Shown here: positions 503 through 20,017 of the stretch, piece after piece
How positions within the stretch are numbered: the stretch's first letter is position 1
How the letters are laid out: each line of letters begins with the position of its first letter
From: Planctomycetaceae bacterium
GTDB taxonomy: Bacteria; Planctomycetota; Planctomycetia; Pirellulales; Thermoguttaceae
DNA: 47,675 bases
Direction: 5' to 3'
NCBI GenBank assembly: GCA_031267635.1
Contig: JAIRYX010000232.1
Span: forward strand, 1 to 47,675
Made by a program: the position numbers and the translations under genes
The notes under the pieces: model-generated
The model's database searches: none
What the model saw: only the letters and a program-made list of their open reading frames with translations
What the model was told of the DNA's origin: nothing

Positions 503-558
503 GTAACTACTCAGTCGCTAAACCCCAATAAATCCGCTTTGAGCGACTGAATCGTTAC
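503..558. repeat. Short palindromic copy or end of the dispersed GTAACTAYTCAGTCGC repeat family
   Basis: gtaactactcagtcgct ... agcgactgaatcgttac inverted repeat; same ends recur at 21185-21519 and 40051-40242. Confidence 0.7.
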
Positions 559-582
559 AAAAAGAAAGCTCATGAGGAATCT

Positions 583-2988
583 ATGTTTTCTCTTTCACGA
601 TTCATTTTTGGGATTGTTATTTGCGGCGCTGTTGTAATTCATAACGCGGCGGCGGTTTCCGCGCAGGACATTGCCCCGCAGCAGATACGCGACGCCATGG
701 AAGGAGCGGTTCATTATCTTAAAAGTCGGCAAAATCCCGACGGCTCGTGGGCGGAGTGGAGAGATCAGCCGTGCGGAGCGACTTCGTTGTGCGCTTTGGC
801 GTTATTGAACGCGGGCGTTACCACAGAGGATTCGGCGATTCAGCGTGCAATGGAATATCTGCGGAAACTGCCGCCGGAACAAGTTGCAAAAACCTACTCG
901 GTTGCGCTGCAAACCATGGCTCTTGCGGCGGCGAATTCGGCAAATGAGATACCGCAAATTCAGAGAAATGTTCAATGGCTGGAGCAATCGCAGGTTCTGT
1001 CGGACAATCCCGAAAAGAACGGCGGTTGGAACAGCGATCCGCAAACGGGAGGTATTCCAGATAACGCCAGCTCGCAATATGTCATTCTTGCCTTGTACGA
1101 AGCGGAACGGGCGGGCGCGAAAATCAAGCCGGAAACGTGGCATCGAGCGAAAGCGTTCTGGGAAAACGGACAAAAAGCCGACGGCTCGTGGTTTAGCGAT
1201 CCGCTGGGAAAACGCGAAGGATCCGATCCGATGACTTGCGCGGGGATCGGTTCGCTGATGATTATTAACGGAATGTATGGAAGTCAATCCGCGTTTGTTC
1301 GGGACGATGTGATCAACTGTTGTCAGCCGGAAGAACAAAACGATAACGAACGGATTGAACGCGGATTTCGTTGGCTTATCCGTAATTTCACCACGACGCC
1401 GGGCGAATGGAATTATTATTACTTGTATTGCATGGAACGTGTCGGGCAGATTTCCGCGCAGCGGTTTATCGGGCAGTACGATTGGTTTCGAGAAGGCGTG
1501 CAGACGCTTTTGAAACGGAAAGGAAACGAGGCGAATCATTGGAAAGGCGACTACGGGTTCGAGACATACGATCATATTGCTACCGCATTTGCTCTGTTGT
1601 TTTTGTCGCGAGGAAGACGACCGGTGCTGATCTCGAAAGGACAATACACAGACAATCAAGCCGTTTGGTCGCCGCATCCGAACGATCTAAAAAATCTGAC
1701 AGAGTTTGCGATACGGCAATGGCGGCTTGAAATGACGTGGCAAAATATTGACGTCCGTAAAGCGGAAGTCGATGATTTACTTCAAACGCCGATTCTTTTT
1801 CTCTGTGGCAGTCAAAGTATTCTGAACGGTTCGCTTCAAGAGCAAAAGAGATTGGCGGAAAAACTTCGCGGCTATTTGGATGCGGGCGGATTCCTTTTTG
1901 CCGAAGCCGATACGGAAGACGATTCCTTTGACGCCGGGTTCCGAAAGCTGATGAAGAGCGTCTTTCAGAACGAAAGCGATTGCGAATTACGTCCGCTTGA
2001 GCCGGAACATCCGGTTTGGTCGATGGAAACCGTGATTCCCGAAGATCAACTTCGTCCGATGGAGGGAATTGATTACGGATGCCGGACGTGCGTGATTTAT
2101 TTGCCGCCGATACGGAACATACGTGATTCTCCGCCGCGTCCGGTTTCGCCGTCGCTTTCGTGCTTATGGGAATTGCAGCGTTTTCATTCGCGGGAAGACG
2201 CTTATGCCGAACACGTTCAGCATCAGATCGACGCCGCGTTGGGGATTGGCTTAAACATCGCGGCTTATGCGACCGGACGGACGCCGAAGTATAAATATGA
2301 AATGCCGTCAACGGCGGAAGAAAAACTGGCGGACTATCATCGGCGGCGAGGACAAATTCAGACGGCGATGCTTGATCTGCAAGGAAACGTCAATGCCGCG
2401 CCGCGTGCCGTTCCGAAACTGCTGCAACAGATTGCCGTGCAGTTGAATATTCCGGTGAATGTTCATCCGGTGCGAGTCTCGCTGGATCAGGACGAGATTT
2501 TCGACTCTCCGATTCTGTTTTTGCACGGACGAAACGCGATAGCGATGACGGAATCCCAGCGAAAGCAGTTGAAAAAATACATCGAGCAAGGCGGATTCCT
2601 TTTTGTCAACGCAGTTTGTTCGTCGAAAGCGTTTACGGAATCATTCCAAAAAGAGATGCAAGCGACGTTTCCCGACAAGCCGATGGCGAAAATTCCAGCC
2701 AATGATCCGCTTCTAACGGATTTCTGCGGCGGTTTTCCGCTTCAAACGCTGAATGTAAGAATGCGGGAGAAGACCGAAGAGCGCCGCAACCGGTTCGTCA
2801 CCCAACCGCTTCCGCCCGACTTGGAAGGAATTGCGTTTGACGGACGCTGGCGGATTCTTTTTTCACCGTATGACATAAGTTGTGCCATTGAAGAGACCAA
2901 CGAGACTCTCCAATACCAGGGCTACACGAAAGAAGACGCTTTCAAACTCTCAATCAACGCGATTCTTTACGCCATTGAGTATTTGTAA
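583..2988 (+). CDS. Prenyltransferase/squalene-cyclase-like repeat protein with C-terminal DUF4159-like domains
   Basis: N-terminal signal peptide; 'AVHYLKSRQNPDGSWAEW' and 'KADGSWFSDP' QxxDGSW repeats; two 'TPILFLCG...L.GYLDAGGFLFAEA' / 'SPILFLHG...LKKYIEQGGFLFVNA' blocks typical of DUF4159. Confidence 0.85.
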   Translation: MFSLSRFIFGIVICGAVVIHNAAAVSAQDIAPQQIRDAMEGAVHYLKSRQNPDGSWAEWRDQPCGATSLCALALLNAGVTTEDSAIQRAMEYLRKLPPEQVAKTYSVALQTMALAAANSANEIPQIQRNVQWLEQSQVLSDNPEKNGGWNSDPQTGGIPDNASSQYVILALYEAERAGAKIKPETWHRAKAFWENGQKADGSWFSDPLGKREGSDPMTCAGIGSLMIINGMYGSQSAFVRDDVINCCQPEEQNDNERIERGFRWLIRNFTTTPGEWNYYYLYCMERVGQISAQRFIGQYDWFREGVQTLLKRKGNEANHWKGDYGFETYDHIATAFALLFLSRGRRPVLISKGQYTDNQAVWSPHPNDLKNLTEFAIRQWRLEMTWQNIDVRKAEVDDLLQTPILFLCGSQSILNGSLQEQKRLAEKLRGYLDAGGFLFAEADTEDDSFDAGFRKLMKSVFQNESDCELRPLEPEHPVWSMETVIPEDQLRPMEGIDYGCRTCVIYLPPIRNIRDSPPRPVSPSLSCLWELQRFHSREDAYAEHVQHQIDAALGIGLNIAAYATGRTPKYKYEMPSTAEEKLADYHRRRGQIQTAMLDLQGNVNAAPRAVPKLLQQIAVQLNIPVNVHPVRVSLDQDEIFDSPILFLHGRNAIAMTESQRKQLKKYIEQGGFLFVNAVCSSKAFTESFQKEMQATFPDKPMAKIPANDPLLTDFCGGFPLQTLNVRMREKTEERRNRFVTQPLPPDLEGIAFDGRWRILFSPYDISCAIEETNETLQYQGYTKEDAFKLSINAILYAIEYL

Positions 2989-3027
2989 ACGCGGAACGCC
3001 AAATGCAACACGAAAAGTAAAATGTTG

Positions 3028-3093
3028 GTAACTATTCAGTCGTTGTCTATTGCGTTTTCAAATATTGTCCTCCAAAAACGAAATAATCAGAAA
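3028..3093. repeat. Dispersed repeat fragment (GTAACTATTCAGTCG + TCTATTGCGTTTTCAAATATTGTCCYCCAAAAACGAAATMATCAG)
   Basis: Near-identical block at 20158-20206 and inverted at about 17828-17875. Confidence 0.65.
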
Positions 3094-3147
3094 TCCTCCT
3101 TATTACACAAAATCCGTTTCGACAAAACAATCGACAACCATGGATTT

Positions 3148-4038
3148 TCATTGTACCGGCTTTGATGTTCCGCCGCGATCCGCGACTTGATAACCACGAG
3201 GACCGAGAAATAGCGTGTATTCAAAATGATTTTGCACAAGAATTTTTCGTAGCAAATGAAAAGAATCGTAAGAATCCTGAAACATGATTACGTCAAAGGC
3301 AACGTGCGAGGAATCGAATTTTCTCAAACTCGCGAGCGTTTGAGCGTCCGACTGTTTTGTGTAATCGAAGCCCGTCCAAGGTTTCGGATACGTTTCAATA
3401 GAACTTCCGTTGTCAAACGCGGTAAATTGTTCATCGTTCAATCCTGCGCTGCTACCGTTGGGAAGCGTTTTGTGCCAGAAAAAGAGTTTGTCGCCCTGAA
3501 CGATTAACGCGACTTTCCGCTTGTACGACGCTTTCATACGCGGAAGTTGAATTTCCTGGATTTTGTCTTTGACTGCCGTGTCAAAAAAAATTCGCTGCTG
3601 CGTTTGATATTGTTCACGAATTTGTTCTAACTCGCGCAGCGTTTGATTCCACAGATTTTCTGCGTCCGCAATCGTTTTTACGTTCTCAATAATTGTCGCG
3701 GTTTGCAGCGTTTTTTGTTTGAGAAGCTCGCCGCGTTGTTTTTCCAAATCAAAAATTTGCCGAAGCAATTCGCTTTTGTCGGGTGCGGAATCATAAAATG
3801 CGACATTCATTTTTTGCAACTGCTCTTGTTCGGCAAGCAGTTCTTCAAGCCGGTTTTGCGACGCTAAAACGACGTCGGAAGGAACCGTATCGGCAATCGG
3901 TTTATCGATTTCGCCATGTTTGATCATTCGCGTCAACACGGCAACAAGAATCGCGATAAAAAGGATTCCGCCGAACGTGTTGCAAACCACGTCGAGAAAC
4001 AGTTCCAAACTTCCTTGAGGATTTTTTTTACGTCGCAT
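3148..4038 (-). CDS. ExbD/MotB-like single-TM protein with coiled coil
   Basis: N-terminal TM 'GSLELFLDVVCNTFGGILFIAILVAVLTRM' with an Asp at the start of the TM as in ExbD/MotB; followed by coiled coil. Confidence 0.65.
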   Translation of the reverse strand: MRRKKNPQGSLELFLDVVCNTFGGILFIAILVAVLTRMIKHGEIDKPIADTVPSDVVLASQNRLEELLAEQEQLQKMNVAFYDSAPDKSELLRQIFDLEKQRGELLKQKTLQTATIIENVKTIADAENLWNQTLRELEQIREQYQTQQRIFFDTAVKDKIQEIQLPRMKASYKRKVALIVQGDKLFFWHKTLPNGSSAGLNDEQFTAFDNGSSIETYPKPWTGFDYTKQSDAQTLASLRKFDSSHVAFDVIMFQDSYDSFHLLRKILVQNHFEYTLFLGPRGYQVADRGGTSKPVQ

Positions 4039-4091
4039 GATTTTTACCTGCTTAATTCACATTTTGGGGAGGGTTTGATTTATAAAATCCT

Positions 4092-4340
4092 GTAACTAGT
4101 CAATTCTCCAAGCCACATAAATCCGCACGGTAACTGGGTAACTACAGTTACTTTTGCCGGAAAAGATTACTATTGCCGCCCTTAATTTATAAAATTCCCT
4201 TAGTAGCCCCCAATAACTCGCCAATATACGCCCTTATTCCCTTATTTGTCGTTTACCATTCTCTAAAAAAAGGCATAAGGGCGAGGTTGAGGGCTTTGTG
4301 GGCTACTAAAGGAAACTTGATACCTTTATACATCACTACC
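4092..4340. repeat. MITE-like dispersed repeat copy (degraded)
   Basis: gtaactagtcaattctccaagccacataaatccgcacgg start, internal 'attgccgcccttaatttataaaattcccttagtagccc' shared with 21185-21519 copy; internal arm 'gggctttgtgggctactaaagg'. Confidence 0.6.
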
Positions 4341-4629
4341 TCATTTCAAAGCGGAATAATGAGGTCATGATGCTAGTTGGTGGAAAATCCTTTTGCTGCT
4401 GAGGTTATTTTGTTAGGAAAATGAGGTAAAAAAGAGGTTGACGTTGACGTCTTCGTTTTTCCGATATTTGAAAATAAAAAATCGCCGTAAATAATGACAA
4501 AAATAAATAATCCAATCAAGTGAAGAGACGCTGCTAAAGTATTTCTCCGTTATGATTGACTATCCGAATCGCCGTATCGTTTCCCAGCACGTCAAATCCT
4601 GTTTGATAACCTGCCGTGCGAATCAAATT

Positions 4630-5349
4630 TTAAAGCTGTTCATAATAACTTGCCGCCGCAGGACGCACATAAAAAACAAAATACTCTTTCTCTTTCGGAC
4701 GGCTTTTCGCCCAACTCAAAAATGAATTTCGCGTGCGAATTTCCGTTTGTCCTGTTTCGGAATCAACAATGTAAATCTCATTTTCATTGTTTCCGCAGAC
4801 CACTAACCAAGATTTCAAGCGATCTTCTTCCGCTCGCGAGAAAAAAAACGAATTGTCGGCAATGGCTTTTTCTTTCTGTTCAAACTGCCGTATTTTTTCA
4901 CGTAGCGATTGGATACGTTCCTGATTATTTCGAATCGCGGCGATGAGTTCGTCAAGTTTTTCTTTTTCACGTCCGATCTCTTCCGTATTATTTTGATAAT
5001 TTTCTAAATCTTTCTGCAAAGCCGCAATTTCCATCTGGAGTTGTTTTTGCCGAATTTTTATTTCATCTGCCGTGAAAAACAAGTTTGCGTCCGCCGTTTC
5101 TTGTCTTGACTGAAATTCGTTGTTCAGCGAATCCACTGTGATTTCCAGATCGCGAATTTGTTCCCGCATTTTTTCATGCGCCGTTTTCGTCATGGAAACG
5201 GGACTTTCCTGCGGGTTAATATTCTTATTGACTAATTTCACCACAAGAATCAACGTGATCATAATGATAATACCGCAAATGCAAAACATCACGTCTTGAA
5301 AAGAAAAAAACGAAATGGACGCACTGTTTCCCCGATTTCGTGCCGACAT
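4630..5349 (-). CDS. ExbD/MotB-like single-TM protein with coiled coil
   Basis: 'SISFFSFQDVMFCICGIIIMITLILVVKLVNK' TM with Asp in a 'DVM' context like ExbD; directly precedes the stop of the MotA-like gene side by side in the same operon. Confidence 0.65.
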   Translation of the reverse strand: MSARNRGNSASISFFSFQDVMFCICGIIIMITLILVVKLVNKNINPQESPVSMTKTAHEKMREQIRDLEITVDSLNNEFQSRQETADANLFFTADEIKIRQKQLQMEIAALQKDLENYQNNTEEIGREKEKLDELIAAIRNNQERIQSLREKIRQFEQKEKAIADNSFFFSRAEEDRLKSWLVVCGNNENEIYIVDSETGQTEIRTRNSFLSWAKSRPKEKEYFVFYVRPAAASYYEQL

Positions 5350-5351
5350 GA

Positions 5352-6246
5352 TTATTCCTTTTCTCCTTCAAACAGCGACATGCGAAGATGTTGAACGATG
5401 TGACGATTACAATATTCCGCGCAATCGTCGAGAAATTCTTCTTCGTTTTTGCGGAGCGCGGTTGCGGACAAATAAAGGAATAACGCCACAACCAGCGCGA
5501 GAAGCGTCGTATCGAACGCCGTCATCAAACCGGCGGTCACGTGCCGCAACGACTCGGCAATCGCTTCCAATTCGGAAGTCGATGTGAGAACGGAACCGAA
5601 ACTACCGATAGCTTGCGACAAACCAATGACCGTGCCGACAAAGCCGAACACGGGAATCGCCCAAAGAAAACCGTTGATAAGCGTGTAGCTGGTTTCCAGT
5701 GAATTTTCATCGCGTTCCGCATGCGATCGCAAAATGTCGTCCACATCGGAAATACGTCCGAGATTTTTCAAATTCGAGAGCGTTGAAATCATTCGATGAT
5801 ACAAAAGATAAGCGTGCGGTTCCGGCGCAATGGAATGAATCACCTGAAGCACAGAATCGGCGGTATTTCGTGAAATGATAAAGTCATGGATTCCGGGCAA
5901 CACGGAAAGTTTCAACGCTTTCTTTTGCTCGCGAAGTTTCAGCCATTTCACGCCGAGAATAACCAGCGTCCAGACGCCGAAAAATACAGTTGGATATTGT
6001 GTAAAACCGCGATTGGTACAAAGTTCGCTGACATATTTTATAGCATGGCTGACAAATTTTATGTCAGGAAGTTTCGGCAACAAAAACAGCGCGGTAAAAA
6101 AACAGCTCGTCGTCACAAACGCAACAAGAAAACTGAATCTCGGATTAACATTTGTAAATCTCGCCCCGCGAAAACCGAATCGTTGTTCAATATCGCTTTT
6201 GTGCCAAAATAATTTGTAATCATCGTCGAAGGAATTTTTCATCATT
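5352..6246 (-). CDS. MotA/TolQ/ExbB proton channel family protein
   Basis: ORF extends to 6452 but the likely start is the ATGATG at 6243/6246; 'NGFLWAIPVFGFVGTVIGLSQAIGSFGSV ... LRHVTAGLMTAFDTTLLALVVALFLYL' is the MotA_ExbB signature. Confidence 0.88.
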
Positions 6247-6247
6247 T

Positions 6248-7171
6248 TCACATACCTTTCGGATTCGGTCCATATTTGTTGGAACCGGGTTGACTGTCCA
6301 TAAGACAAAAAATCAAAAGAATTATTTGACCTATGCCAATCAACAAAAGTAACGATAACCATCCGCTGTTTCCTGTATCGTGCAGGCGACGAACGAGTAA
6401 AGCCAACCCAGGGACGACAATTGCCAAACAATAAATTATATACACTCCCCATAAAAGGAATGTCAAATACACTAAAATAGGTGAAGCCGTTTCATCATCA
6501 AGAGTTCCGACTAAAAGTATCAAAAAAAATGAAACAATGCCAACGGATAAAGCAACAAAAAGATTGATGAGTTGAAACCACCAATATTCTTTACGCCTTG
6601 ATCGTCCTTCAAATTGTGCGTATTTTTGCAAAACATCCAAATATCCGGTTTTATCGGAATTATCCGCTTGCGAATACGAATTGTATGGTGGTGACATATA
6701 ATTGGCTTGATAATTTTGTCCCATGTTAGGTGAAGGAAATGGCGGCGTAAAATATCTGGAAAATATCGGAATTGTTTTTAGCTGCTGCGCATTTTGTCCT
6801 TGCTGCCAAATCAATGAATCGGCACGAAGCTGACCGGTTTGAATCAACTGAACAATCGCGTTTCCCGCAACCGGTCCGAATCCTGCCTGACCGTCGATAC
6901 TGTAATACCATAATCCGGGGATTTGCGGTTCATTGATCGGCGGTTCGTTGATCGGTTGTTGAGGTTGCGAATAGGGGTTTTGCGGCAATGATTGCGCAGG
7001 CGTTGCGTTTTTAGGGAAAAATTCTTCATTTTCTCCCGCGTTCATCCAATTGATACGGTCTTGCGATATTTCATTATTTCGCCCGATTTGACCGCTTTTT
7101 ATCATCCCTTGAATTTGTACGTTTTCAAACGGACCAAATGCTTTGCCGCGAATTTTGACATAATATGACAT
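6248..7171 (-). CDS. Double GYF_2 (DUF4339) + DUF805 membrane protein
   Basis: 'YYVKIRGKAFGPFENVQIQGMI' and 'LWYYSIDGQAGFGPVAGNAIVQLI' GYF_2 modules; C-terminus 'YAQFEGRSRRKEYWWFQLINLF ... LVRRLHDTGNSGW' DUF805. Confidence 0.88.
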   Translation of the reverse strand: MSYYVKIRGKAFGPFENVQIQGMIKSGQIGRNNEISQDRINWMNAGENEEFFPKNATPAQSLPQNPYSQPQQPINEPPINEPQIPGLWYYSIDGQAGFGPVAGNAIVQLIQTGQLRADSLIWQQGQNAQQLKTIPIFSRYFTPPFPSPNMGQNYQANYMSPPYNSYSQADNSDKTGYLDVLQKYAQFEGRSRRKEYWWFQLINLFVALSVGIVSFFLILLVGTLDDETASPILVYLTFLLWGVYIIYCLAIVVPGLALLVRRLHDTGNSGWLSLLLLIGIGQIILLIFCLMDSQPGSNKYGPNPKGM

Positions 7172-7204
7172 TGCTATTTCTCCAAAATTTTTGTTAAATT
7201 GTTA

Positions 7205-8578
7205 TTATGATATTACCAGTGGATGCGGTTCCATATAAGAACGTACTTTTATACAGTAACCGTAAAATAAAACGAAACTTGCCACCGCAATAAATGCGGG
7301 ATATGTAGGTTGCAGTATAAACAACCAGTCATAAAATCCATGTAAGAATGCTGTAATTCCCAACCCTAACGGTAAATACAGAAAAACACGCCGTGGAAAT
7401 TGATAAGACATTGCTATAAAGTAAGAAAAAATTCCTGACCAAACAGCATGTCCAAATACACATGTTAGTGAACGTAACATAACAAGTATCATTGCACTCA
7501 TAATTCCATCTATTATTGTATGTATGACGTCTTCTGCATTTTGGGCGTCATCCAATTTTAGAAGTGTTTTGATAATATGGTTTTCAACATATTGTTTATT
7601 TTCATAGACACTAAAGCCCAAACCGGAAAAAACACCAATCAACAATATCATTGTCAAACTTGGTTTCTTTTGACAGATAAGCATAACAATCATATAAATT
7701 CCGACCGGAGCTATTTTACAAAGTTCTTCACAAATTCCGACGCCAAAAATAAATCCTAGTAGTGAAAGTATTAAATTGTCGTGTTCTGTTATTCGCATAT
7801 AGAGATTTGTCAAAGGAAGAAGAAAAGCGAGACCAATTATTCCTGTAAAAAACATAGCGGTAATGGGAATGTAAAGTTTATCATTGGACTTTATGACCAA
7901 TGAGCGGAATATTCCTCCCCAGAGAAAACCGAAGAAAAATAACATACCTACTAATGGTAAATAACCGCTTGGATCATCAACAGATATTATCACAAGCGGT
8001 AAAACGCCAAGTACCATTACCACCCAAAATATTGGTGACAATAATATTTTTTGGATATTTTCTGCTGTAAACAAAAACACATCGCTTATTTTTTCTCTTG
8101 GAATGTCGGTAATTGACGGTGTTGGAATGCTTGGTGGAACATTCGGCTGAACGTTTTGCGAAACACCGGAATAAACCGAAGTGTTAGGAGGATAAAACAC
8201 GCTATGAAACGCTGGAATACGTTGCGCTTGTTCCGGTTGACCGTTTTCTTGCCATAACAAAGAATTTGCAAGGATTTGTCCTGAACGTATCATTTGCGCA
8301 ATTGTCGAGCCGGCATAAGGTCCATATCCGGTTTGACCGTCATTGCTGTAATACCACTGTCCCGGAATTTGCGGTTCCGTAGCGGGAGGTTGTGGAATAC
8401 TTTGTGCAGCCGCCGTTTTCGGAAACAACATCTCATTTTCTTCCGCGCGTGTCCAATTCACACGGTCTTGTGAAATTTCAGTTGTTTTACCGACTTTACC
8501 TTTTTGGATTAAATCCTGAATCTGCACATCATCAAACGGTCCAAACGCTTTACCGCGAATTTTGACATAATATGCCAT
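7205..8578 (-). CDS. Double GYF_2 + PrsW-family intramembrane metalloprotease
   Basis: GYF_2 pair paralogous to the neighbouring gene; 'GICEELCKIAPVG' (EExxK), 'FSGLGFSVYENKQYV', 'FGHAVWSGIFSYFIA', 'FLHGFYDWLF' motifs of PrsW. Confidence 0.85.
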   Translation of the reverse strand: MAYYVKIRGKAFGPFDDVQIQDLIQKGKVGKTTEISQDRVNWTRAEENEMLFPKTAAAQSIPQPPATEPQIPGQWYYSNDGQTGYGPYAGSTIAQMIRSGQILANSLLWQENGQPEQAQRIPAFHSVFYPPNTSVYSGVSQNVQPNVPPSIPTPSITDIPREKISDVFLFTAENIQKILLSPIFWVVMVLGVLPLVIISVDDPSGYLPLVGMLFFFGFLWGGIFRSLVIKSNDKLYIPITAMFFTGIIGLAFLLPLTNLYMRITEHDNLILSLLGFIFGVGICEELCKIAPVGIYMIVMLICQKKPSLTMILLIGVFSGLGFSVYENKQYVENHIIKTLLKLDDAQNAEDVIHTIIDGIMSAMILVMLRSLTCVFGHAVWSGIFSYFIAMSYQFPRRVFLYLPLGLGITAFLHGFYDWLFILQPTYPAFIAVASFVLFYGYCIKVRSYMEPHPLVIS

Positions 8579-8746
8579 TGTTGTCTCTCTGTTGTTGAGA
8601 ATTATTGAATTTTTGTTTTGACTGGATTTATGTTGGCATCATATGTTCCTCGTACTTGAACATTCGATTTTCGTTTAAAGAGGGACGTTAAGGACGAGAG
8701 GGACTTTGTGGACATGATGAACGATACCTGCTTTCTGAATATCAAT

Positions 8747-9060
8747 TTCGGACTTCCGAACTCCAATCAATCCCTTCAAAACTTCCTTTTGGGCTTTTTT
8801 TACTCCGATTTTGGAGCGATGAACTCCACCTTTTCCGTTCAAAACGTCTCGTTTGGACTTCCGAACTCCAACTTTGGACTTTTGAAGTCCGAAAATTGGA
8901 CGTTTCGAAGTCCGATTTCGGCTTTTTGAAGTTCAAACAATATCTTCGAAAGCCCAAATTCGGAGTTCTTTAACATCAAAAAGGACGTTTTGAAGTCCAA
9001 AATTGGAGTTCGGAAGTCCAACGTTTACGTTCCGAAGTCCAAAGTTGATCCGCGAAAGCC
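8747..9060. repeat. Degenerate tandem array, period about 21 bp
   Basis: ttcggacttccgaactccaat ... tttggacttccgaactccaac ... tttggacttttgaagtccgaa; spacing between shared cores is 21 bp with 1-2 bp jitter. Confidence 0.75.
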
Positions 9061-9206
9061 GTGACAATTCACGAAAAATTTTATCAATTCCCTTGTTTAT
9101 ACTCCTCATGCTTGAACATTTGATTTTTAAGACAGTGTTTGTCGTTCCTCAAGTCCCTCTTGTTCCTTTGGAAATAAAAACCGCATTTTCAAGTATGAGG
9201 GGACTC

Positions 9207-12119
9207 TTATTCATTTCCGACCTTCACAAACACCGGAGCGCATTGTAACATGTTTGGGTTGTCGAAGAGTTGGATATTTTGTTTCGTGCCGATATTTCCG
9301 ACATGGACGAGCGAATAGCCATTGTTGTTGGATGATGCGCTCGCTTGCCGGCGAACAATGTAAAGTTCGCCTTCAATGTCGTCGTCGCTTTTGAGTTCGC
9401 ATTTCCAATTGTTCAAATCGCGGTTCAAAAAGCCGATCCATCGGAAACGATATGGTTTGACAAAACTCTCATTTTCCGCGTATTTTGCGAATGTTTCTTT
9501 AATTTGTTCCGGTTTTGGCAAGCGGATTTTCGCTAACACGTCAAGCGCCTGCTGACGGGCTTTGGTTGTTGGCGACGACTCTGCATTCATACGATTCACA
9601 TATTCATCAAGCGTCTTATTGTTCATATTCAACAGAATCGGCTGATAATTTTTCGCAATAATCGCGTCATATTCCGAAAAATCGGCGATCATCGTTTTCA
9701 TCAGCGAATACTTGAGAATCGGATCGACGCCGTCCGCACTATAAACTTCGTGAATGAGCGACGCGCACACAAGCGTCCAGTTTTTCTGTTCTATCTGTTC
9801 CAATATTGTCAAGCCGTGTTCTGCAATATCCGTTTGTGTTTTTTTCGGCAAGTTTTCAAAAAATTCTTTGTCGAAACGTTTGGGAGTCGGCGTCGCGTAG
9901 TCGCTGGTCGCATAATTGTAACTGCCCGGATTGTTCGGCTTTCGCGTGACATAATACCATGTGGAATTTTGCGACGTAAACAAAACCCAAAACGGCTTCG
10001 TTTTCAGGTCGGTAAGTATATCCGTTGTTTTCGCAAAAATTATTTCATTTTGTGAGATAGGGCGTTTGGCAATCGCCGTAATCAAGTTGATTTCATCGGG
10101 CTGAATCGCAAAATTCTCGCTGCTATAATCAACAAACGTGTTGGTAAACGTTTGCAATATCTTGGAAAATTTGTTCGCGTCTTCCGGTGCGGATTTTTCC
10201 AATAATCGAAAATTCGACAACAAACGGCACAGCTCGTCATATTTCAATAACATTTCAATCGCGTTCCATTCGTCTTGTATCATTTCCATTTGCTTGACAA
10301 TGTTGTTGTCAGGAAATTTTTTAATGATACCGCTCAGCCGCGTCTTGAATAAATCCGCATATCCGATGTTAGAAACCAACGTTTGAATATTTTGTTGGAG
10401 AGCGTTTTGCAAATCAATTTGGTCGATTTGCATTTGCAAATCCGCAATGGTTTTCTTGCAGCGTTCCAAATGTCCCGACGTTGCGTTGGGATATTCGTTG
10501 ACGAGCGATTCCAACGAAAGAATCCATTCCCGTTTTTTATTTTTGATTTCATTAGGCGAAAGATTTTTATTATTGGCAGGATTTTGAATCTCTTTTTGAA
10601 TCAGACTCCACCGAGCCAGCAAGTTCTTGTCCACTTGATTTTTCCGGTCGCGTTCAATCCGCTGATATTTTCCGCGCAACGATTCAAGAATTGTTCGTTC
10701 CTCTTCCGTTGTTGCCAATCGTCCCAATTCGCTCACCAACGACGGACGCGAAACGTCGTTTGCGTCAATCATCTGCGTCAATTCCTGCTGAATGTCGGCA
10801 AAACGTTTTTTACGGCGTTCGGCGTCCTCTACCATTTGCTGCAATTTCGTGAGAAGAAACGCCGCTTCGCCGTCTTGCATTGTAGAAAGTTTCGCTTCAT
10901 TCGCTTTAAGATATTTGCTGATATTTTCAGAATTTCCTTCTTCCTCTAATTTTTTGAGCGCGATAACGGTATCGGCAACGATTTTATGTTGCGTGTAAGC
11001 GTAAACAAACAATCCCGCCATACTGACGACGACAAGAGACACGAAAATCGCCGAAATCGTAATCCATCGCGTGCGTCGGCGATGCTGCAATTCCTGCATA
11101 TCGACGTTTTGCTCAAATGCGTCGGTGATTTCTTCGGGAATTTCTACCGAGGCATTTTGCGCGGTAATTTGCAACTGCTGATAAAGCCGTTGAAGTTCCG
11201 GCAACGGCGTTTCAACTTTCATTGCCGCGACCATTTGATTACGGATAGCTTCGTACTGATGCAGATTTTTCTGTTGTTGTGCGTCTTCTTGCAACCAATT
11301 GACTGCTCCCTGCGTCATTTTTACGACGTCTTGAGGAACAGGAAAGTTATATTGCGTTTGCAGCGAGCAGAGATTTTGATAAATCATTCTTCCTTGATTC
11401 ACGTCAAATTGAACATGAGCATTCAACAATAACTCAGCCAACTCCCACATTTGACGTGCTACATTTTTCAGCAGATTGTTTTGTAACACGGATTCTATCT
11501 GAAAAACAAGAGTGACCGGCGGCGTCAATGCCCATGATTGCGACAGTTCGTTTTGTAACGTCTTGAGTTGTTCAATATTATTTTCCTTGATTGCCGCACG
11601 GATTTCTGTTTCGAGTTCGGGCAATCGTAACTGTTCAAACGTTTCCTGATCTTTTATCCAAAATGTATTGGACGGATCAAGAACGGCAATTTCTCGCAAC
11701 AAGCCAAGCCGTTCCGTCAACGGCGCACGCGACAACGCGGCAAGACGATATTTGCGAAGATGCGGTTCCAACAAATGTTGCGAATCGTAAGCGTCGTTGA
11801 GTTCTTTAGCAAACTCTTTTTGCAGCGGCGGCGGAATCGGATAACCAAGCAACGCCGTCACGTCGCACCATTCTTCGCGTTCTGGAAAATCCAAGATGTT
11901 ATAAATATCGAGAAGCGGCGGCTCGGTTTCCGCAAGACGCACGGCTTCCGCGAGATTTCCCTGCCGCAAAAATCCGCCGCAATATTTCATCCGCTCATTG
12001 AGTTCGTCGCACGCGGCGGCGTATTGCTCCGCTAACGTCCGCAACGTTTCCGGCGCGGTTGTATCGGAAAACATCAGTGCGTTTTTAATCGCGTCAACAG
12101 TTGCTTGGTAATCTGTCAT
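9207..12119 (-). CDS. Large single-TM coiled-coil/helical-repeat protein of unknown function
   Basis: 970-aa uninterrupted ORF; TM 'RWITISAIFVSLVVVSMAGLFVYAYT' between two long helical regions. Confidence 0.8.
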   Translation of the reverse strand: MTDYQATVDAIKNALMFSDTTAPETLRTLAEQYAAACDELNERMKYCGGFLRQGNLAEAVRLAETEPPLLDIYNILDFPEREEWCDVTALLGYPIPPPLQKEFAKELNDAYDSQHLLEPHLRKYRLAALSRAPLTERLGLLREIAVLDPSNTFWIKDQETFEQLRLPELETEIRAAIKENNIEQLKTLQNELSQSWALTPPVTLVFQIESVLQNNLLKNVARQMWELAELLLNAHVQFDVNQGRMIYQNLCSLQTQYNFPVPQDVVKMTQGAVNWLQEDAQQQKNLHQYEAIRNQMVAAMKVETPLPELQRLYQQLQITAQNASVEIPEEITDAFEQNVDMQELQHRRRTRWITISAIFVSLVVVSMAGLFVYAYTQHKIVADTVIALKKLEEEGNSENISKYLKANEAKLSTMQDGEAAFLLTKLQQMVEDAERRKKRFADIQQELTQMIDANDVSRPSLVSELGRLATTEEERTILESLRGKYQRIERDRKNQVDKNLLARWSLIQKEIQNPANNKNLSPNEIKNKKREWILSLESLVNEYPNATSGHLERCKKTIADLQMQIDQIDLQNALQQNIQTLVSNIGYADLFKTRLSGIIKKFPDNNIVKQMEMIQDEWNAIEMLLKYDELCRLLSNFRLLEKSAPEDANKFSKILQTFTNTFVDYSSENFAIQPDEINLITAIAKRPISQNEIIFAKTTDILTDLKTKPFWVLFTSQNSTWYYVTRKPNNPGSYNYATSDYATPTPKRFDKEFFENLPKKTQTDIAEHGLTILEQIEQKNWTLVCASLIHEVYSADGVDPILKYSLMKTMIADFSEYDAIIAKNYQPILLNMNNKTLDEYVNRMNAESSPTTKARQQALDVLAKIRLPKPEQIKETFAKYAENESFVKPYRFRWIGFLNRDLNNWKCELKSDDDIEGELYIVRRQASASSNNNGYSLVHVGNIGTKQNIQLFDNPNMLQCAPVFVKVGNE

Positions 12120-12241
12120 GGTTGTATGATAACACTAAGTTAAATGTTTATTTTTAGGGACTTTTACGACTTCTTGGAACATTGTGATGTTCGCAATATT
12201 ATGTTGCCGACGTCATCGACGCCGCTGAATTTTACGGCTGT

Positions 12242-14344
12242 TTATTTGGTTGTTAAAATGATAACTTTTGTTTCAGCCGTTTGCACATAAAGATCAAAAT
12301 CAAATGTCAATTTAGGATTTTTACGATACGCTTGATAAGCGTCATTGAACGCAATGAAATTTTTGCAAACATCATTTTGATTTTTTGAAATTTCTTCCAA
12401 TGCTTTTTCTAAAATCTTCGGATCAGCTAAAATATTTTGAATCTCTGGATAATCTCTAAATACACCTTGACCTTTTAATTTATCTTGTTCACTAACTTTT
12501 TGGAACATTGCCAAACGTATCTTTTCCCATTCATCTGGTTGGACGTTATCAATAAAAATTCTTTCATTCTTTATGACAACATCAAATAATAAAACGGATT
12601 CACTTATAGATTTATCATCAAGTTTTATTTTTAATTCGTAGGACATTCTATTACTTGGTTCGTTGTCATTAGGAATTACTTTTTTGCGTTCAATAACAAA
12701 ATCAAATTTTTCGTTATCGTAATTAATTTTACGAAAATCAATATTCATCTTTGTAATCCATTTTGCAACTTTATCTTTTTCAACGTGCCCACCACCTTCT
12801 TCATTAGCAAAGACTTTAAATTGGTCAGGTGATTTGAGTAAATTTTCATCTTTTTCTAACTTAATTATTGGTTTTGGAACAGATACGTCAAAACGATGAT
12901 TTGTAGAGTCATATTTGGGTTTGGATATAGAGTTGACAGAACTGAGTAATTCTTCTTCTTCGGTTATTTGAGTTTTCTCATTAGGAGGTTGCGGCGGTTC
13001 TGGTTTATTTTCTTTATCTTTCTTTTCATTTGCGTCATTTACATCATTATTGGGCGTTTTGCTTGAGCTTTCTGATTTTTCTTCTTTGGAAGACAATTCA
13101 TTATTTGACTTGTTTTGCTCTTTATTTGATTGTTCTCTTGCTAAAGCGTTTTCTGTCTTCAGCGGTTCGTTTTTTGGCGGTTCTGTTTTCTTTTCTTCCG
13201 ATTGAGTCGTTGTTTGTGGTTGCGATTGTTTTTGAATTTCTTGCGTCCTCTTTGACCAATTTGATAACCTCCCGCATAAAATCACTCCAAGTGGTATCAA
13301 TACAATCACTGCGAAAAAAATAATAATTCCAATGAGACATCCTTTTTTACCACTCGCTTCTTCCGATTCATAACGGTTGAAATCGTAACTGCCGCGCGTG
13401 TAGATTTTCTTCTTTTGTCCGGGAACGGAAACCGTTGCGGGGACAGATTGAAATACCGGCGAATCCGCAAGTTCGTACGCGCCGGATTCATTTTCCGCCG
13501 ACGCTTTGATCGGCGTTTGGACTGGCATTACGATTGCACGTTCTTGTTCGGGCGAAACGCCGGTTCTCGCTAATTCCGTCCATTTTCCGGCGGGCGGAGC
13601 GGCTAACGGTTGCGTCAAATCTAAAACTAACGTATTCGCCGAAAGACGCGCTTGCGCAATTTCCGGCGAGCCGATTAAAATTGATTTGATTTGACAATCC
13701 ACACCGGTCGGAATATTACAATAATATGTTGTGAATGTCGTCTTCCATTGTTGTTCCGGCGGCAATAAGGCAAGCGATTCTTCAATTAACGGAAGCGTTG
13801 GGACGCCCGGATGAAAAATGAGCGAAACCGGACGTTTTACAACCGCCGCTTCCGCCAGCACGCCGCCCCACCCCGCGTCACCGGTGAATTGCTTCCATAC
13901 GTTACACACGCGAATCGGCGAGGAAAATGTCGGCAATTTTTTGTTCGCCGGTAACAACGCCGCTTTCTGATTCCAGGACGTACAAAACTGCGAATATTGT
14001 AAAAGAATTGCGGCTGGTCCCGACGGTTGTAATTCCGCGTTGTCCAAGACAAGATGATGCGAAATTTTGTTGGTGCGCTTCGTGTAATCCAATCCGGCAT
14101 CCGCCGTCCGCGAAAGAATTCGCCATGTCAAGCCGCCCTGACGAACGATAAGAGACGAAAACGCAACCGGATTTTTCACCGTGTTCGGATCGGGCGGCAA
14201 ATAAACATGACGATAACCGCTTAACGTCTCCAGAAATCGTGTCAAATTCGGTGGCATCCCCGCCGTACAAGCGACGGTGCAAAATCCTTGACTTCCCGGT
14301 TTTAGACCTTGCGGCGATGATGTATAAATTAATTCCTGAAGCAT
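12242..14344 (-). CDS. GAP1-N2-like (GTPase-associated protein 1 N-terminal) domain protein with TM and charged linker
   Basis: N-terminus 'LIYTSSPQGLKPGSQGFCTVACTAGMPPNLTRFLETLSGYRHVY ... DYTKRTNKISHHLVLD' resembles GAP1-N2 from memory; TM 'GCLIGIIIFFAVIVLIPLGVILC'; adjacent to a GTPase gene. Confidence 0.7.
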   Translation of the reverse strand: MLQELIYTSSPQGLKPGSQGFCTVACTAGMPPNLTRFLETLSGYRHVYLPPDPNTVKNPVAFSSLIVRQGGLTWRILSRTADAGLDYTKRTNKISHHLVLDNAELQPSGPAAILLQYSQFCTSWNQKAALLPANKKLPTFSSPIRVCNVWKQFTGDAGWGGVLAEAAVVKRPVSLIFHPGVPTLPLIEESLALLPPEQQWKTTFTTYYCNIPTGVDCQIKSILIGSPEIAQARLSANTLVLDLTQPLAAPPAGKWTELARTGVSPEQERAIVMPVQTPIKASAENESGAYELADSPVFQSVPATVSVPGQKKKIYTRGSYDFNRYESEEASGKKGCLIGIIIFFAVIVLIPLGVILCGRLSNWSKRTQEIQKQSQPQTTTQSEEKKTEPPKNEPLKTENALAREQSNKEQNKSNNELSSKEEKSESSSKTPNNDVNDANEKKDKENKPEPPQPPNEKTQITEEEELLSSVNSISKPKYDSTNHRFDVSVPKPIIKLEKDENLLKSPDQFKVFANEEGGGHVEKDKVAKWITKMNIDFRKINYDNEKFDFVIERKKVIPNDNEPSNRMSYELKIKLDDKSISESVLLFDVVIKNERIFIDNVQPDEWEKIRLAMFQKVSEQDKLKGQGVFRDYPEIQNILADPKILEKALEEISKNQNDVCKNFIAFNDAYQAYRKNPKLTFDFDLYVQTAETKVIILTTK

Positions 14345-14441
14345 AACAGCGTTCCTGTGTCAGCGTGGTTGATGGAAAAATGTCCGGCAAATATTTTAGG
14401 GAGGCGAGTCATCCTCACAACTTTGATTTTATTTTAAATTT

Positions 14442-15722
14442 TCACTTTACTTTTTTTGCTACGGAAATGACGCCGCGCGTGAGTTTGTTCAATATGTAAA
14501 GAATTGGCACTTCAACCCAGTACGGTTTGATGTCCGCAGGACGAAAACCAAGCGCGCCGGTTTGCGAATCAATTGACGGCGGTCCGCCTGTCGCGCTGAC
14601 CGGAATGTAAATCACATCGTCCGACAGTTGTTCCGCCGCCGAAACAATTTCAGGGATCAACTGATAAAGCAGTGCACGAGCTTTTTGAGAAATTTGCTCT
14701 ACTTCTGCAATGTGCAACGCGCGAACATTGGTGTTGGGAATTGCCATCCATGGATTCGACTCCATTCGAGCGTTCAGCAAAAACAACCACGCATCCGCTT
14801 TGGTCAAAACAATCACAAGCGGCGTTTTCTTTCGCGTCTTGCCTCGCACGTTCCAATGATTCCGCACACGATTGGCAAGTTCGGATAAAATGGATTCCTG
14901 CCGAACAGGAGAACGACGCACCGAATCATTGTTTTGCATTTGCGGATCATTGGCACGTCCCTGACATGCACGACGAAACCGCGCGTCTTGTGTTGGATCA
15001 AACAAAAAGAAAACCGCGTCGGACGTTACAATATGCCGCGTTACCGGACGAACCGCGCTATCTTCGCCCGGCAAGTAACTTTCGCCCGCGTTGTCGTAAA
15101 GACAAAGAATTTTGGAAATATTCGCCGCGTTGTTCGCAAGCGGATGTTCTTTATCCGGCGACATCGTAAACGTGAACGGCTGAGGAAACGAAACGTTCTG
15201 CCCCTTCAAAAAAACCGTATTATAAATGTCGCCGTAAACTTCTGTTTTTTCGATAGCGGCAAGCATATTTGAGTCGGTCTGCAAAAACTGCTGTGATTCA
15301 TAATGCTGCAACCGTAAATTCATTTCCGGGTCGGCGTCGGTATAAGAAAAATGAAAATATTTCGGCATCACTTTGCGAAGCCGCCATGTCATCGACGCGA
15401 GATAATACGATTTTCCCGCAGCGGGCGCACCGACAATGGAAAGAAACAACGGCGGCATTTCCAAAAACGGACGCGGAATTTGCAAATGACAATTCGGACA
15501 TGCCAAGCGATGACACGCAAAACCGTTAGCGTCCAACGCTTGCGCCGCCGGATTAAAACGCATCGGCAAAAAACGCTGCTGCGCGGCGTTTCCCAACCGC
15601 GAATCGCCGAGCAAGTCGGGCGATTCCGAAATCCAAAGTATTTTTTCCGTGTCAAAACGTTCCCAACAATGCGGGCATGTGACTTGTTCGAGAAGTTGAA
15701 TCGAAGGCGTTGCGGAGACCAT
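14442..15722 (-). CDS. Zinc-ribbon P-loop GTPase (TRAFAC, DO-GTPase2-like)
   Basis: CPHC...CPNC ribbon; P-loop 'SIVGAPAAGKSYYLASM'; 'KILCLYDNAGESY' G3-like; 'VIVLTKADAW' G4; ORF extends to 15824, likely ATG at 15722. Confidence 0.75.
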   Translation of the reverse strand: MVSATPSIQLLEQVTCPHCWERFDTEKILWISESPDLLGDSRLGNAAQQRFLPMRFNPAAQALDANGFACHRLACPNCHLQIPRPFLEMPPLFLSIVGAPAAGKSYYLASMTWRLRKVMPKYFHFSYTDADPEMNLRLQHYESQQFLQTDSNMLAAIEKTEVYGDIYNTVFLKGQNVSFPQPFTFTMSPDKEHPLANNAANISKILCLYDNAGESYLPGEDSAVRPVTRHIVTSDAVFFLFDPTQDARFRRACQGRANDPQMQNNDSVRRSPVRQESILSELANRVRNHWNVRGKTRKKTPLVIVLTKADAWLFLLNARMESNPWMAIPNTNVRALHIAEVEQISQKARALLYQLIPEIVSAAEQLSDDVIYIPVSATGGPPSIDSQTGALGFRPADIKPYWVEVPILYILNKLTRGVISVAKKVK

Positions 15723-15799
15723 TTTGTTTCCTGTTTGGTTATTGGTTAAAGGACGGTAAGGACATTGAGAGACAAAAGAGATATGTTTTTTATATGCTA

Positions 15800-16570
15800 T
15801 CACATCGGACGTTTCATAATACATTCATAACTCGCCTTATTTCCGTTGGTTGCTCGTCTTGCGGAAATCAATTCCCAACCTTGTTTTCCGTATTTATCCA
15901 TTTCATCTATAAACATCGAATCAAAGGGAGCAATAACCAGATATTCATACTTGATGTTTGGTTGTCGAAGTTGTGACTGAATGGTTGTCAGTTGGGATGG
16001 AATATTATGAAGCTTGTTAAATTGTGAATTGATATTTTTAAGTTGTGAATCAATATTGTTAAGTTGGGAATTGGTTATTTCCAAATTCGTATTTTGCTGA
16101 GCGTTCATTTGTTTTAAAAATCCGATTTGCCCTGTTTGGACAAAAACGCCGATGATTTGAAAAATGATAATCGCTCCCAAGAAACCCAGCGCAATTTTCA
16201 TCAAAAGCATAGCGTTTTTTATCGTCGCCAATAACAATGCGATTTGTTGTTCCAATGTTCCTTGATTTCCCGCTTGAGGAATCGCAACATTGGAAACCGG
16301 TACGGCAACCGTAGCGGCAGATTCCGGCGGATGTTCATCATCGCTGGAATCGCTATTCTTGCTTGAATCATGTACCAGCGATGGTTCGGGAACGCTGACA
16401 GGCGACTGTTGGGTGAAAAGTCCCGGAATTTTCGATGCGGGAAATTCACGCCCGTTTTCGCTGATAATAATCGTATCCGGCATGACGGCTCCGCTTATTG
16501 CCATTTGCTTGATTTCCGCCGCACTCAATGGACCTTGTTTGTTTCCCTGCGTATCACGAATGTAAAACAT
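15800..16570 (-). CDS. GYF_2 domain, TM, coiled coil and DUF4177-like C-terminus
   Basis: 'MFYIRDTQGNKQGPLSAAEIKQMAISGAVMPDTII'; TM 'MKIALGFLGAIIIFQIIGVFV'; 'YEYLVIAPFDSMFIDEMDKYGKQGWELISA'. Confidence 0.75.
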   Translation of the reverse strand: MFYIRDTQGNKQGPLSAAEIKQMAISGAVMPDTIIISENGREFPASKIPGLFTQQSPVSVPEPSLVHDSSKNSDSSDDEHPPESAATVAVPVSNVAIPQAGNQGTLEQQIALLLATIKNAMLLMKIALGFLGAIIIFQIIGVFVQTGQIGFLKQMNAQQNTNLEITNSQLNNIDSQLKNINSQFNKLHNIPSQLTTIQSQLRQPNIKYEYLVIAPFDSMFIDEMDKYGKQGWELISARRATNGNKASYECIMKRPM

Positions 16571-16622
16571 CGTCTAACCTTTTACTAATTTTTATTTTTT
16601 CGTTTTTAACTTTTAGCTTACT

Positions 16623-17153
16623 TTACTCGACCGTTATGACTAACGTTTTAGAATCGTCTCCAAATTTTATTTGACCACCGGCTTGTTTTTCGGAAATACG
16701 TTTCAAAAGATTTTCCGCGTCTTGTTGAATTTTCTGCTTGGTTTCATTCGGCGTTTTATTTTGATTGCATTCCGTCCAGACCTGAAACGCTTGAACGTAT
16801 GCTTTTTCCAACTTGCCGTTATCAAACAACTGCTCCGCTTGTTTTAATTGCGTTTCTTGTTTGACAAAAGATTCGTGAGATTTTTTGTTGAAAACCGTTT
16901 CATCATTGCCGTTTTTTGCTGATTCGGAATCGGAGTTTTGCGGCTCGGATTGTTCTGATTCTTTTTCTGCGGACTCGTTATTTTGAGAATTTTCCGCTTG
17001 TTCTTTTGATTCGTATTCCGTCTTTTCCGGCTTTGCCATGATCGGCATAACGGACGGTTGATTTGCCGTTTTCTTTTGACAGGAACATCCCGGCAAAAAT
17101 AAAAACGAAATAAGGAGGACAAAAAAACAAAAGAGTTGTGTTGCGAATTTCAT
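16623..17153 (-). CDS. Putative lipoprotein
   Basis: 'LFCFFVLLISFLFLPGCSCQKK' lipobox-like signal peptide, acidic linker. Confidence 0.65.
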   Translation of the reverse strand: MKFATQLFCFFVLLISFLFLPGCSCQKKTANQPSVMPIMAKPEKTEYESKEQAENSQNNESAEKESEQSEPQNSDSESAKNGNDETVFNKKSHESFVKQETQLKQAEQLFDNGKLEKAYVQAFQVWTECNQNKTPNETKQKIQQDAENLLKRISEKQAGGQIKFGDDSKTLVITVE

Positions 17154-18419: not shown

Positions 18420-18968
18420 GTGAATGACGAACAACTCATTGAACAAACGTTGGAAGGAAACCGTGACGCATTTGGTGAATTGGTGACAAAATATCAGGTA
18501 CGGCTGTATAACACGATGATACAAGTTGTTGGCAGTGCAGAAGATGCGTATGATGTTGCACAAGAGGCATTTTTACAGGCGTATCTTCGATTGAACACAT
18601 TTCGGCAGACTAGTAAGTTTTATACGTGGTTGTACAGAATTGCGTTTAATGTTGCTATGGGAATACGCCGAAGTCACCGAATACGCGGTTGGAACGGCGA
18701 TATGAAACAAGAATTGACCGAAAATTTGGAAGACCGTTCCAAACGGCCTGAAGAACATTTGATTTCTAAAGAAAATGTCAAATTTGTCCAAGATTCACTG
18801 AATGAATTAGATAGTGAGTTTCGGATAGTTATCATATTGCGTGAATTGGAAGAATTTTCCTATGAAGAAATTGCGGAAATCACTGAAGTACCGATCGGCA
18901 CGGTACGAAGCCGATTGCATCGCGCAAGATCAATGTTGAAAGAGCGTTTCATGCGGCAAATCAAATAA
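18420..18968 (+). CDS. ECF-type RNA polymerase sigma factor
   Basis: 'RDAFGELVTKYQVRLYNTMIQVVGSAEDAYDVAQEAFLQAY' (region 2) and 'YEEIAEITEVPIGTVRSRLHRARSMLKERF' (region 4); GTG start. Confidence 0.93.
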   Translation: MNDEQLIEQTLEGNRDAFGELVTKYQVRLYNTMIQVVGSAEDAYDVAQEAFLQAYLRLNTFRQTSKFYTWLYRIAFNVAMGIRRSHRIRGWNGDMKQELTENLEDRSKRPEEHLISKENVKFVQDSLNELDSEFRIVIILRELEEFSYEEIAEITEVPIGTVRSRLHRARSMLKERFMRQIK

Positions 18969-19126
18969 CTATTATAGCGTATGAATATATTAAGGAATCA
19001 ATTTGCTATTATTGGACAATCTTTTTGATCATTTCAAAATCACCTTTTTGGTGTATAAAACACGCTAAAATGTTGATAGTTTTAGTTTGATTGTTTTTGC
19101 AATCAACATGGATATCGGGTATCAAT

Positions 19127-20017
19127 ATGAACTCCTTTCAACTGGAACAACTCATTGGCTGTTATATTGACGACGAGCTTCCGCCTGAGCGAATGGCGGA
19201 AGTGGAGCGTTTGCTTCGTTATAACACAATGGCAAAAAAAATGTACGACGAATTGACGTCGATACGCAAAGAGCTGCAACACATTCCTCGTCGGAACGTT
19301 AAATACGATTTTCAGGAACGGCTTTTTGCACGGATTGACGCAACACTTACCGGTTCCACAATCGAGCCGGCTAAAAAACGCTTGTCGTATAACGAAGAAG
19401 AAACGGTTTCCGAACAGCTGCAACCTCTCAAAAGAAATCCAGTGAATTGGATTGTTTCGGCTCTTGCGATTGCAGCTTGTGTATTTTGTTGCATTACAAT
19501 TTGGCAAACCGGTCATCAAACAAAACCAAGCAACATTGCCGTCAATCCGCCGCAAGTCAATACAAATGAAGAAAAACAGGAAACGCCAACAATAGAGCCG
19601 TATTTTTCGCCGCCGCCATTATCGGCAAGCAGCAATGTTCCCGATTTGCAAAACCATTCGCAGATGGTTATAATAACCGATAAGTCTACTCAATTGGCTG
19701 TCGTTAACGTTTCATGTCGATTGACAGAGGACGCTTATGAGAAGCAATATGTTCCGAAGCTTCTTGCCGACGCTGGTTTTTCATACAAAATTCGTCAACA
19801 CGATGATGACAAAGTGACGGTTTATGAATTTCAAGCAACGCCGCAAGATTTTATGCCGATTCTTTCGCGCTTGTATCAAGACCGCGATAACGTGTTGAAT
19901 TATCAAATATCAGACGTTTTTCTTTCGCTTTTACAGCGTCCTGAAGGTTCTCACGAAAATATTGTCGGTCCAACCGCTTTGGTACAGATATATTTCAATG
20001 TTCAGGCCAATGAATGA
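19127..20017 (+). CDS. Putative single-TM anti-sigma factor
   Basis: 'LIGCYIDDELPPERMAEVERLL' N-terminal anti-sigma-like helix, TM 'NWIVSALAIAACVFCCITIW', directly downstream of the sigma gene. Confidence 0.75.
   Translation: MNSFQLEQLIGCYIDDELPPERMAEVERLLRYNTMAKKMYDELTSIRKELQHIPRRNVKYDFQERLFARIDATLTGSTIEPAKKRLSYNEEETVSEQLQPLKRNPVNWIVSALAIAACVFCCITIWQTGHQTKPSNIAVNPPQVNTNEEKQETPTIEPYFSPPPLSASSNVPDLQNHSQMVIITDKSTQLAVVNVSCRLTEDAYEKQYVPKLLADAGFSYKIRQHDDDKVTVYEFQATPQDFMPILSRLYQDRDNVLNYQISDVFLSLLQRPEGSHENIVGPTALVQIYFNVQANE

Follow-up and report, generated by a model that had tools for sequence, protein, structure and literature searches.

Systems that join a DO-GTPase to a GAP1-N2 protein have been predicted as conflict systems and associated with a multicellular habit, and in planctomycetes they include paired GYF domains fused to trypsin or to a transmembrane (TM)-rich region (Kaur, Burroughs, Iyer, Aravind 2020, PMC7159879). 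The cluster considered here, ten genes on the minus strand of contig JAIRYX010000232.1 (3148-17153), carries such a GTPase/GAP1 pair together with genes for a MotA-type channel and two putative motor B subunits (B1 and B2), and is very probably co-inherited as a single unit. The window, i.e. the whole stretch of DNA that was analysed, corresponds to a single contig (47.7 kb) of a draft genome, and its closest named relatives among the loci fetched for comparison are Planctomycetaceae metagenome-assembled genomes.

The likeness to DO-GTPase/GAP1-N2 systems extends to the order of the GTPase and GAP1-N2 genes, the zinc-ribbon cysteines of the GTPase, the TM-anchored GAP1 and the GYF partner, and two window proteins combine paired GYF_2 domains with TM modules, as in the planctomycete subtype. 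In contrast, the cluster adds a MotA-type A subunit, two B subunits and a TM protein of 970 amino acids (aa). Since this last protein is extra and the FNIII-repeat component was not found (none of the ten proteins matches it in Pfam), the cluster is termed a variant rather than a typical member. In the main text of PMC7159879 there is no occurrence of MotA, TolQ, ExbB, ExbD, MotB or PrsW, and the literature searched gave no other paper linking DO-GTPases to MotA-type motors. A previous interpretation of this DNA (the sequence-only reading) had called the system a candidate undescribed one: for the motor-bearing form no description was indeed found in the literature, whereas the DO-GTPase/GAP1-N2/GYF part had already been reported. 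The ion motor and the hypervariable half of the putative receptor are the elements that are new with respect to the known predicted systems.

Zorya (PMC11890865) also has a MotA/ExbB-family A subunit, an Asp-bearing one-TM B subunit and an accessory distribution, and a weak ZorA match is obtained with 23/23 A-subunit homologues. However, the A subunit of the cluster (298 aa) lacks the long cytoplasmic tail of ZorA, its B subunits lack the peptidoglycan-binding domain of ZorB (no OmpA-type Pfam match), and instead of ZorC, ZorD and ZorE, to which PADLOC found no match in the ten proteins, there are the GTPase/GAP1 module and two different B subunits. With motors of the TolQR, ExbBD and AglRQS type the cluster shares the channel Thr of the A subunit, the TM Asp of the B subunit and the position of the B gene directly downstream, but its B subunits give no ExbD match, a GTPase receptor module is present, and a TolA, Pal or TonB partner is missing. 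AglRQS has two B-like proteins.

Gene order, co-occurrence and selection

The ten minus-strand open reading frames (ORFs) are present at the positions listed below with no opposing gene among them, and the tight junctions pointed out in the sequence-only reading are real: the GYF_2-DUF805 gene ends at 6248, on the MotA ATG (6248-6246), and the MotA stop at 5352 is followed by the next start at 5349. The run is not continuous, with gaps of ~590 bp (4039-4629) and ~630 bp (8579-9206) that contain no complete gene and consist mostly of repeats. The features are as follows.

16623..17153, minus strand: small lipoprotein-like protein, 176 aa, with an LPGC lipobox (from the sequence); fast evolving and loosely associated with the cluster
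15800..16570, minus strand: GYF_2 + TM + coiled coil + DUF4177 protein (Pfam)
14442..15725, minus strand: DO-GTPase, ORF open to 15824 (Pfam DO-GTPase2, motifs)
12242..14344, minus strand: GAP1, with N2 and M domains, TM and variable outer region (Pfam, TM prediction)
9207..12119, minus strand: 970-aa core protein (locus conservation, AlphaFold2 (AF2) model)
8619..9206, no strand: degenerate ~21-nt repeats, non-coding, between the 970-aa gene and the PrsW gene (repeat search)
7205..8578, minus strand: two GYF_2 + PrsW-type intramembrane protease (Pfam)
6248..7171, minus strand: two GYF_2 + DUF805 membrane module (Pfam)
5352..6248, minus strand: A subunit, MotA/TolQ/ExbB family, 4 TM (Pfam, 34 homologues)
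4630..5349, minus strand: putative B subunit 1, with FFSFQD TM motif, Asp19 and coiled coil; ends early at an in-frame TAA
4537..4629, minus strand: 31 codons past the TAA that match the B subunit 1 C-terminus (sequence comparison)
4048..4322, no strand: interspersed repeat, ~280 bp, between both B-subunit genes (repeat copies across the genome)
3148..4038, minus strand: putative B subunit 2, with SLELFLD TM motif and Asp16 (conservation in 32 homologues, AF2 model)

When 85,462 species genomes were scanned with the GTPase alignment, 408 relatives were found, and 80 loci, nearly all planctomycete and a few from Lentisphaerae, were fetched; positional counts refer only to those fetched loci that are long enough to show the gene in question. 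Almost all of the 80 show the order GTPase, GAP1, 970-aa protein, GYF_2 protein. Downstream of the GTPase lie GAP1 in 63/67 loci, the 970-aa protein in 49/50 and a GYF_2 protein in 41/48. The motor is found downstream or upstream of the GTPase in 25/40 loci (upstream in L084, L096 and L097), MotA, B1 and B2 are contiguous in 26 of the 33 loci with MotA, and GYF_2 genes stand between or inside the motor genes in G172, G228 and G244. GAP1-N2 matches in a phylum sample also led to neighbourhoods with the same gene set in distant phylum members. The co-location of the GTPase/GAP1 pair with MotA in other genomes, on which the single-system idea had been made to depend, is therefore borne out as a gene order recurring across planctomycetes, in which MotA-type channel, GTPase/GAP1 pair and GYF_2 proteins form one co-inherited cassette.

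Within the class, the GTPase is encoded in 25 of 119 genomes. When the system-specific MotA set is delimited at E <1e-110 (the next family scores 2e-74), an intact member is found in 9 genomes, all of them GTPase carriers (hypergeometric p ~2e-7); in each, MotA is encoded 6.5-8 kb downstream of the GTPase, on its contig and strand. B subunit 2 is encoded in the same 9 genomes and in G234, where the B1-B2 pair lies ~74 kb from the GTPase; fragments of B subunit 2 and of MotA are found in G198 and G187, respectively. The ratio of nonsynonymous to synonymous substitution rates (dN/dS) is 0.04-0.16 for the GTPase (0.06), MotA, both B subunits and the comparable ends of the 970-aa protein. These values and the gene order kept across planctomycetes argue that the cluster is not a product of chance. 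The lipoprotein-like protein has a dN/dS of 0.44 with respect to L041, and a similar ORF occupies the equal position in L026.

The GTPase, GAP1 and their partners

Profile searches supported most of the families that had been named from the sequence, i.e. MotA_ExbB, GYF_2, DUF805, PrsW, GAP1-N2, DO-GTPase2 and DUF4177, the exception being ExbD, and also recognised GAP1-M. The GTPase matches Pfam DO-GTPase2 (PF19993) at 27.7 bits against a cut-off of 27, and contains N-terminal zinc-ribbon cysteines (CxxC pairs), a GAPAAGKS Walker A motif, a DNAGE Walker B motif and TKAD; among 7 homologues DNAGE is invariant, and the zinc-ribbon cysteines and the GAPxxGKS- and TKxD-type motifs are largely so. 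GAP1 matches GAP1-N2 (9.9e-27) and GAP1-M (9.2e-7), domains found in 51/51 and 50/51 homologues, respectively. Its cytoplasmic N2 and M domains (aa 1-250) are followed by a TM segment (~aa 330-355) and by an extracytoplasmic region (aa 356-700), and all 71 GAP1 homologues have a single TM, with roughly 300-600 aa outside in which recognised domains are almost always absent. A proline-rich GAP1 linker was considered as a ligand of the GYF domains and dropped, the PP[GFWILMV] motif being present in just 19/51 homologues and lacking in the window copy. Further copies of GTPase (C169) and GAP1 (C61) are found elsewhere in the window's genome.

GAP1 is constant inside the cell and hypervariable or swapped outside. 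The window copy and L041 have 92% identity in the GTPase and 91% in the inner half of GAP1 (synonymous divergence, dS, 0.44), but from the TM on GAP1 identity drops to ~20% (dS saturated; C-terminal part, 28%), to recover in the next gene. In each locus of genus g4 two GAP1 genes flank the GTPase, being 95-100% identical inside and 21-23% outside. In G172 and G228 the GTPases are 98% identical, the MotA proteins 99% and the inner halves of GAP1b 96%, but the outer part of GAP1b 40%. Many other close GAP1 pairs behave alike (e.g. L116/L111, 93% inside, 34% outside), others less so. A break in identity located at the membrane is consistent with a receptor in which the part that confers specificity is exchanged or diversified.

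The 970-aa protein is modelled (AF2, predicted local distance difference test score, pLDDT, 85) with a helical cytoplasmic domain (1-350), a TM segment, an outer helical solenoid and a beta C-terminus, the inside and outside portions being assigned from hydropathy; the model has no match in the PDB at E<0.001. GYF_2 is recognised by Pfam in three window proteins, that of the DUF4177 protein (DUF4177 match, 6.4e-7) being just under the cut-off (2.6e-5). The other two have two GYF_2 domains each, next to DUF805 (5.7e-29) in one and to PrsW (2.3e-19, with EELCK, FSVYE and HGFYD motifs) in the other. Among homologues GYF_2 is found in 58/59, with TM2, DUF805, CD225, DUF4190, trypsin (3/59) or DUF4177 as partners, and this variety of fusions suggests that the GYF_2 protein is an adaptor for interchangeable modules. 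The intramembrane protease, presented in the sequence-only reading as a part of the system, was rejected as a core component: PrsW is one exchangeable GYF_2-fused module, present only in the window copy (1/59) and absent from the congener L167. In L075 about eight consecutive GYF_2 genes (251-8114) are found upstream of the GTPase.

The ion-motor genes

The A subunit (298 aa, 4 TM) matches Pfam MotA_ExbB (PF01618) at 7.4e-11; across the cluster NCBIfam and PADLOC offered nothing stronger, and the ZorA match of the A subunit is weak and local only. Pro267, Thr274, Thr315 and Thr316 (numbering of the 366-aa ORF) are invariant in 34 homologues, the Thr residues being those of the channel in TM3 and TM4. 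The two single-TM proteins were previously labelled ExbD-like, which no HMM or profile match upheld; they are B-subunit-like by position, topology and invariant TM Asp only. Asp19 of B subunit 1 is kept in 97% of 35 homologues, and Asp16 of B subunit 2 in 100% of 32. For B subunit 2 the AF2 model (pLDDT 77) has a coiled coil (55-160) and an alpha/beta domain (174-278), the latter with no PDB fold match at E<0.001, and PDB profile searches gave coiled-coil matches only or, with the GTPase alignment, matched a kinase domain carried as a fusion by a single sequence of the alignment. B1 and B2 are mutually homologous (hhalign probability 99%, with coiled-coil bias), and the presence of two different B subunits suggests that they probably form a heterodimeric plug.

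A longer MotA-like family (mostly 270-620 aa), related to the system MotA, is matched in 118/119 class genomes, several of which also encode a B-like neighbour (example, L038, G000:C352, 2960-6408), and the system motor probably derives from it. Extra B1-B2 pairs without adjoining MotA are found in L137 (9996-12238), L050, L055, L083 and L088, some just upstream of the GTPase. Paired adjacent ExbD genes are common in ordinary planctomycete ExbD loci (L141-L160), and the window's genome, which is 86% complete, yielded no canonical ExbD.

The window copy is slightly eroded. B subunit 1 stops at an in-frame TAA, and past it 31 codons (4537-4629) retain the match to the conserved C-terminus; in the congener L167 a full-length B1 and B2 directly adjoin. 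As selection is otherwise strongly purifying, either this copy eroded only recently or the stop results from an error in the assembly. The repeat between the B-subunit genes (4048-4322) has inverted repeats, is similar to miniature inverted-repeat transposable elements and has left at least 35 partial copies, 72-86% identical, in the window's genome, with traces only in congeners. The degenerate repeats at 8640-9200 (GGACTTCCGAACTCCAA type) include many inverted pairs, and the spacer is much shorter in L167.

Genomic setting and possible roles

The cassette is found in 3/9 sampled species of genus g4, and homology among the three ends at the cassette edges, one G172 flank lying ~2.4 Mb from the cassette in G244. 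Genes for IS21, IS66 and other transposases and for integrases flank it. A clean empty site was not found in the genus because the flanks are themselves variable. The cassette thus behaves as accessory genome, without this being proof of defence. The window neighbours, a prenyltransferase-repeat-like protein (583-2988) and an extracytoplasmic function (ECF) sigma factor with a putative anti-sigma factor (18420-20017), look ordinary as judged by eye.

We regard it as an even proposition that the cluster encodes a single membrane-spanning sensing-and-response system, a DO-GTPase/GAP1-N2 variant with a built-in, non-obligatory ion-driven stator. GAP1 would be the receptor, its variable outer half binding a variable target, be it a phage, a competitor or a non-self surface, and binding would alter the hold of the N2 and M domains on the GTPase. 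With the 970-aa scaffold and the GYF_2 adaptors, the GTPase would then release or gate a MotA pentamer, the pore of which B1 and B2 would plug together, probably as a heterodimer; that the GTPase gates the motor has about equal chances of being right or wrong. Ion flow would set the coiled-coil B subunits turning or moving within the envelope, dissipate the ion gradient, or both, and the modules tethered by GYF_2 (the protease and the CD225, TM2 and DUF805 membrane domains) may be exchangeable effectors. A role in conflict is plausible at somewhat under even chances. A GTPase-controlled, motor-driven machine for immunity or non-self recognition, distinct from Zorya, is put forward tentatively; in it a receptor with a swappable outer domain would switch the GTPase that gates a rotary stator with two different B subunits, and GYF_2 domains would be the plug-in adaptors for effectors.

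Several observations weigh against this proposal. The motor is absent from 15/40 long loci and is therefore not obligatory. Neither B subunit scored above the Pfam cut-off for ExbD, MotB_plug or OmpA, nor did hhalign/profile comparisons detect homology to ExbD; known B subunits, e.g. ExbD and TolR, are frequently below detection thresholds (PMC12505986). The GTPase and MotA distance matrices correlate (r 0.72, Mantel 0.0005), which speaks for a single unit, but shared ancestry contributes to this. The cluster contains no nuclease or toxin-like effector, no cassette copies were found on plasmids or viral contigs, and there are no consistent defence-island neighbours, but only generic kinase matches, mobile-element genes and one MTES_1575 nuclease-domain protein.

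Motors of the MotA/B family mostly power envelope work, the core of the cluster is under strong purifying selection, GYF_2, DUF805 and lipoprotein parts are present, and the DO-GTPase family has also been linked to membrane stress (PMC11237479), all of which would suit a planctomycete machine for envelope stress or maintenance, Tol/Ton-like and GTPase-regulated, rather than a conflict system. The sequence-only reading held this to be equally probable. Accessory-genome behaviour lowers it, however: the cassette is patchy (just 25/119 class genomes; missing from 6/9 sampled species of one genus), it occupies non-orthologous sites beside insertion sequence (IS) elements, and the receptor ectodomain is replaced between close relatives, so that we consider a core envelope machine rather unlikely. 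Similarly improbable is a function in kin or neighbour recognition or in interbacterial competition, with the GAP1 ectodomain as an allorecognition receptor and the GTPase-motor controlling adhesion, envelope remodelling or exchange; the hypervariable, extracytoplasmic outer half joined to a constant inner one and the tie of GAP1-N2 systems to a multicellular habit (PMC7159879) agree with it, but Pfam recognised no polymorphic toxin, immunity gene or adhesin domain in the cluster, and presence within genera is patchy. Finally, two independent neighbouring operons, i.e. a GAP1/GTPase/970-aa/GYF_2 system with a hitch-hiking motor, would explain the loci with a missing or upstream motor and the B1-B2 pair without MotA in L137, but are very improbable given that 9/9 intact system-specific MotA genes adjoin the GTPase in the class sample, that the class-wide MotA paralogue encoded elsewhere belongs to a different family from the motor, and that GYF_2 genes are set among the motor genes.

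The cassette is widespread in a phylum whose cell envelopes are unusual and in which few defence systems have been characterised. If the proposed GTPase-controlled sensing-and-response system is confirmed, predicted DO-GTPase/GAP1 conflict systems would be joined with ion-driven motors outside motility, and GAP1-N2 systems would gain both a concrete output, the motor, and a concrete input, the hypervariable outer domain. It would also represent a second route, besides Zorya, by which a MotA-type motor serves in conflict or recognition, here under the control of a GTPase.

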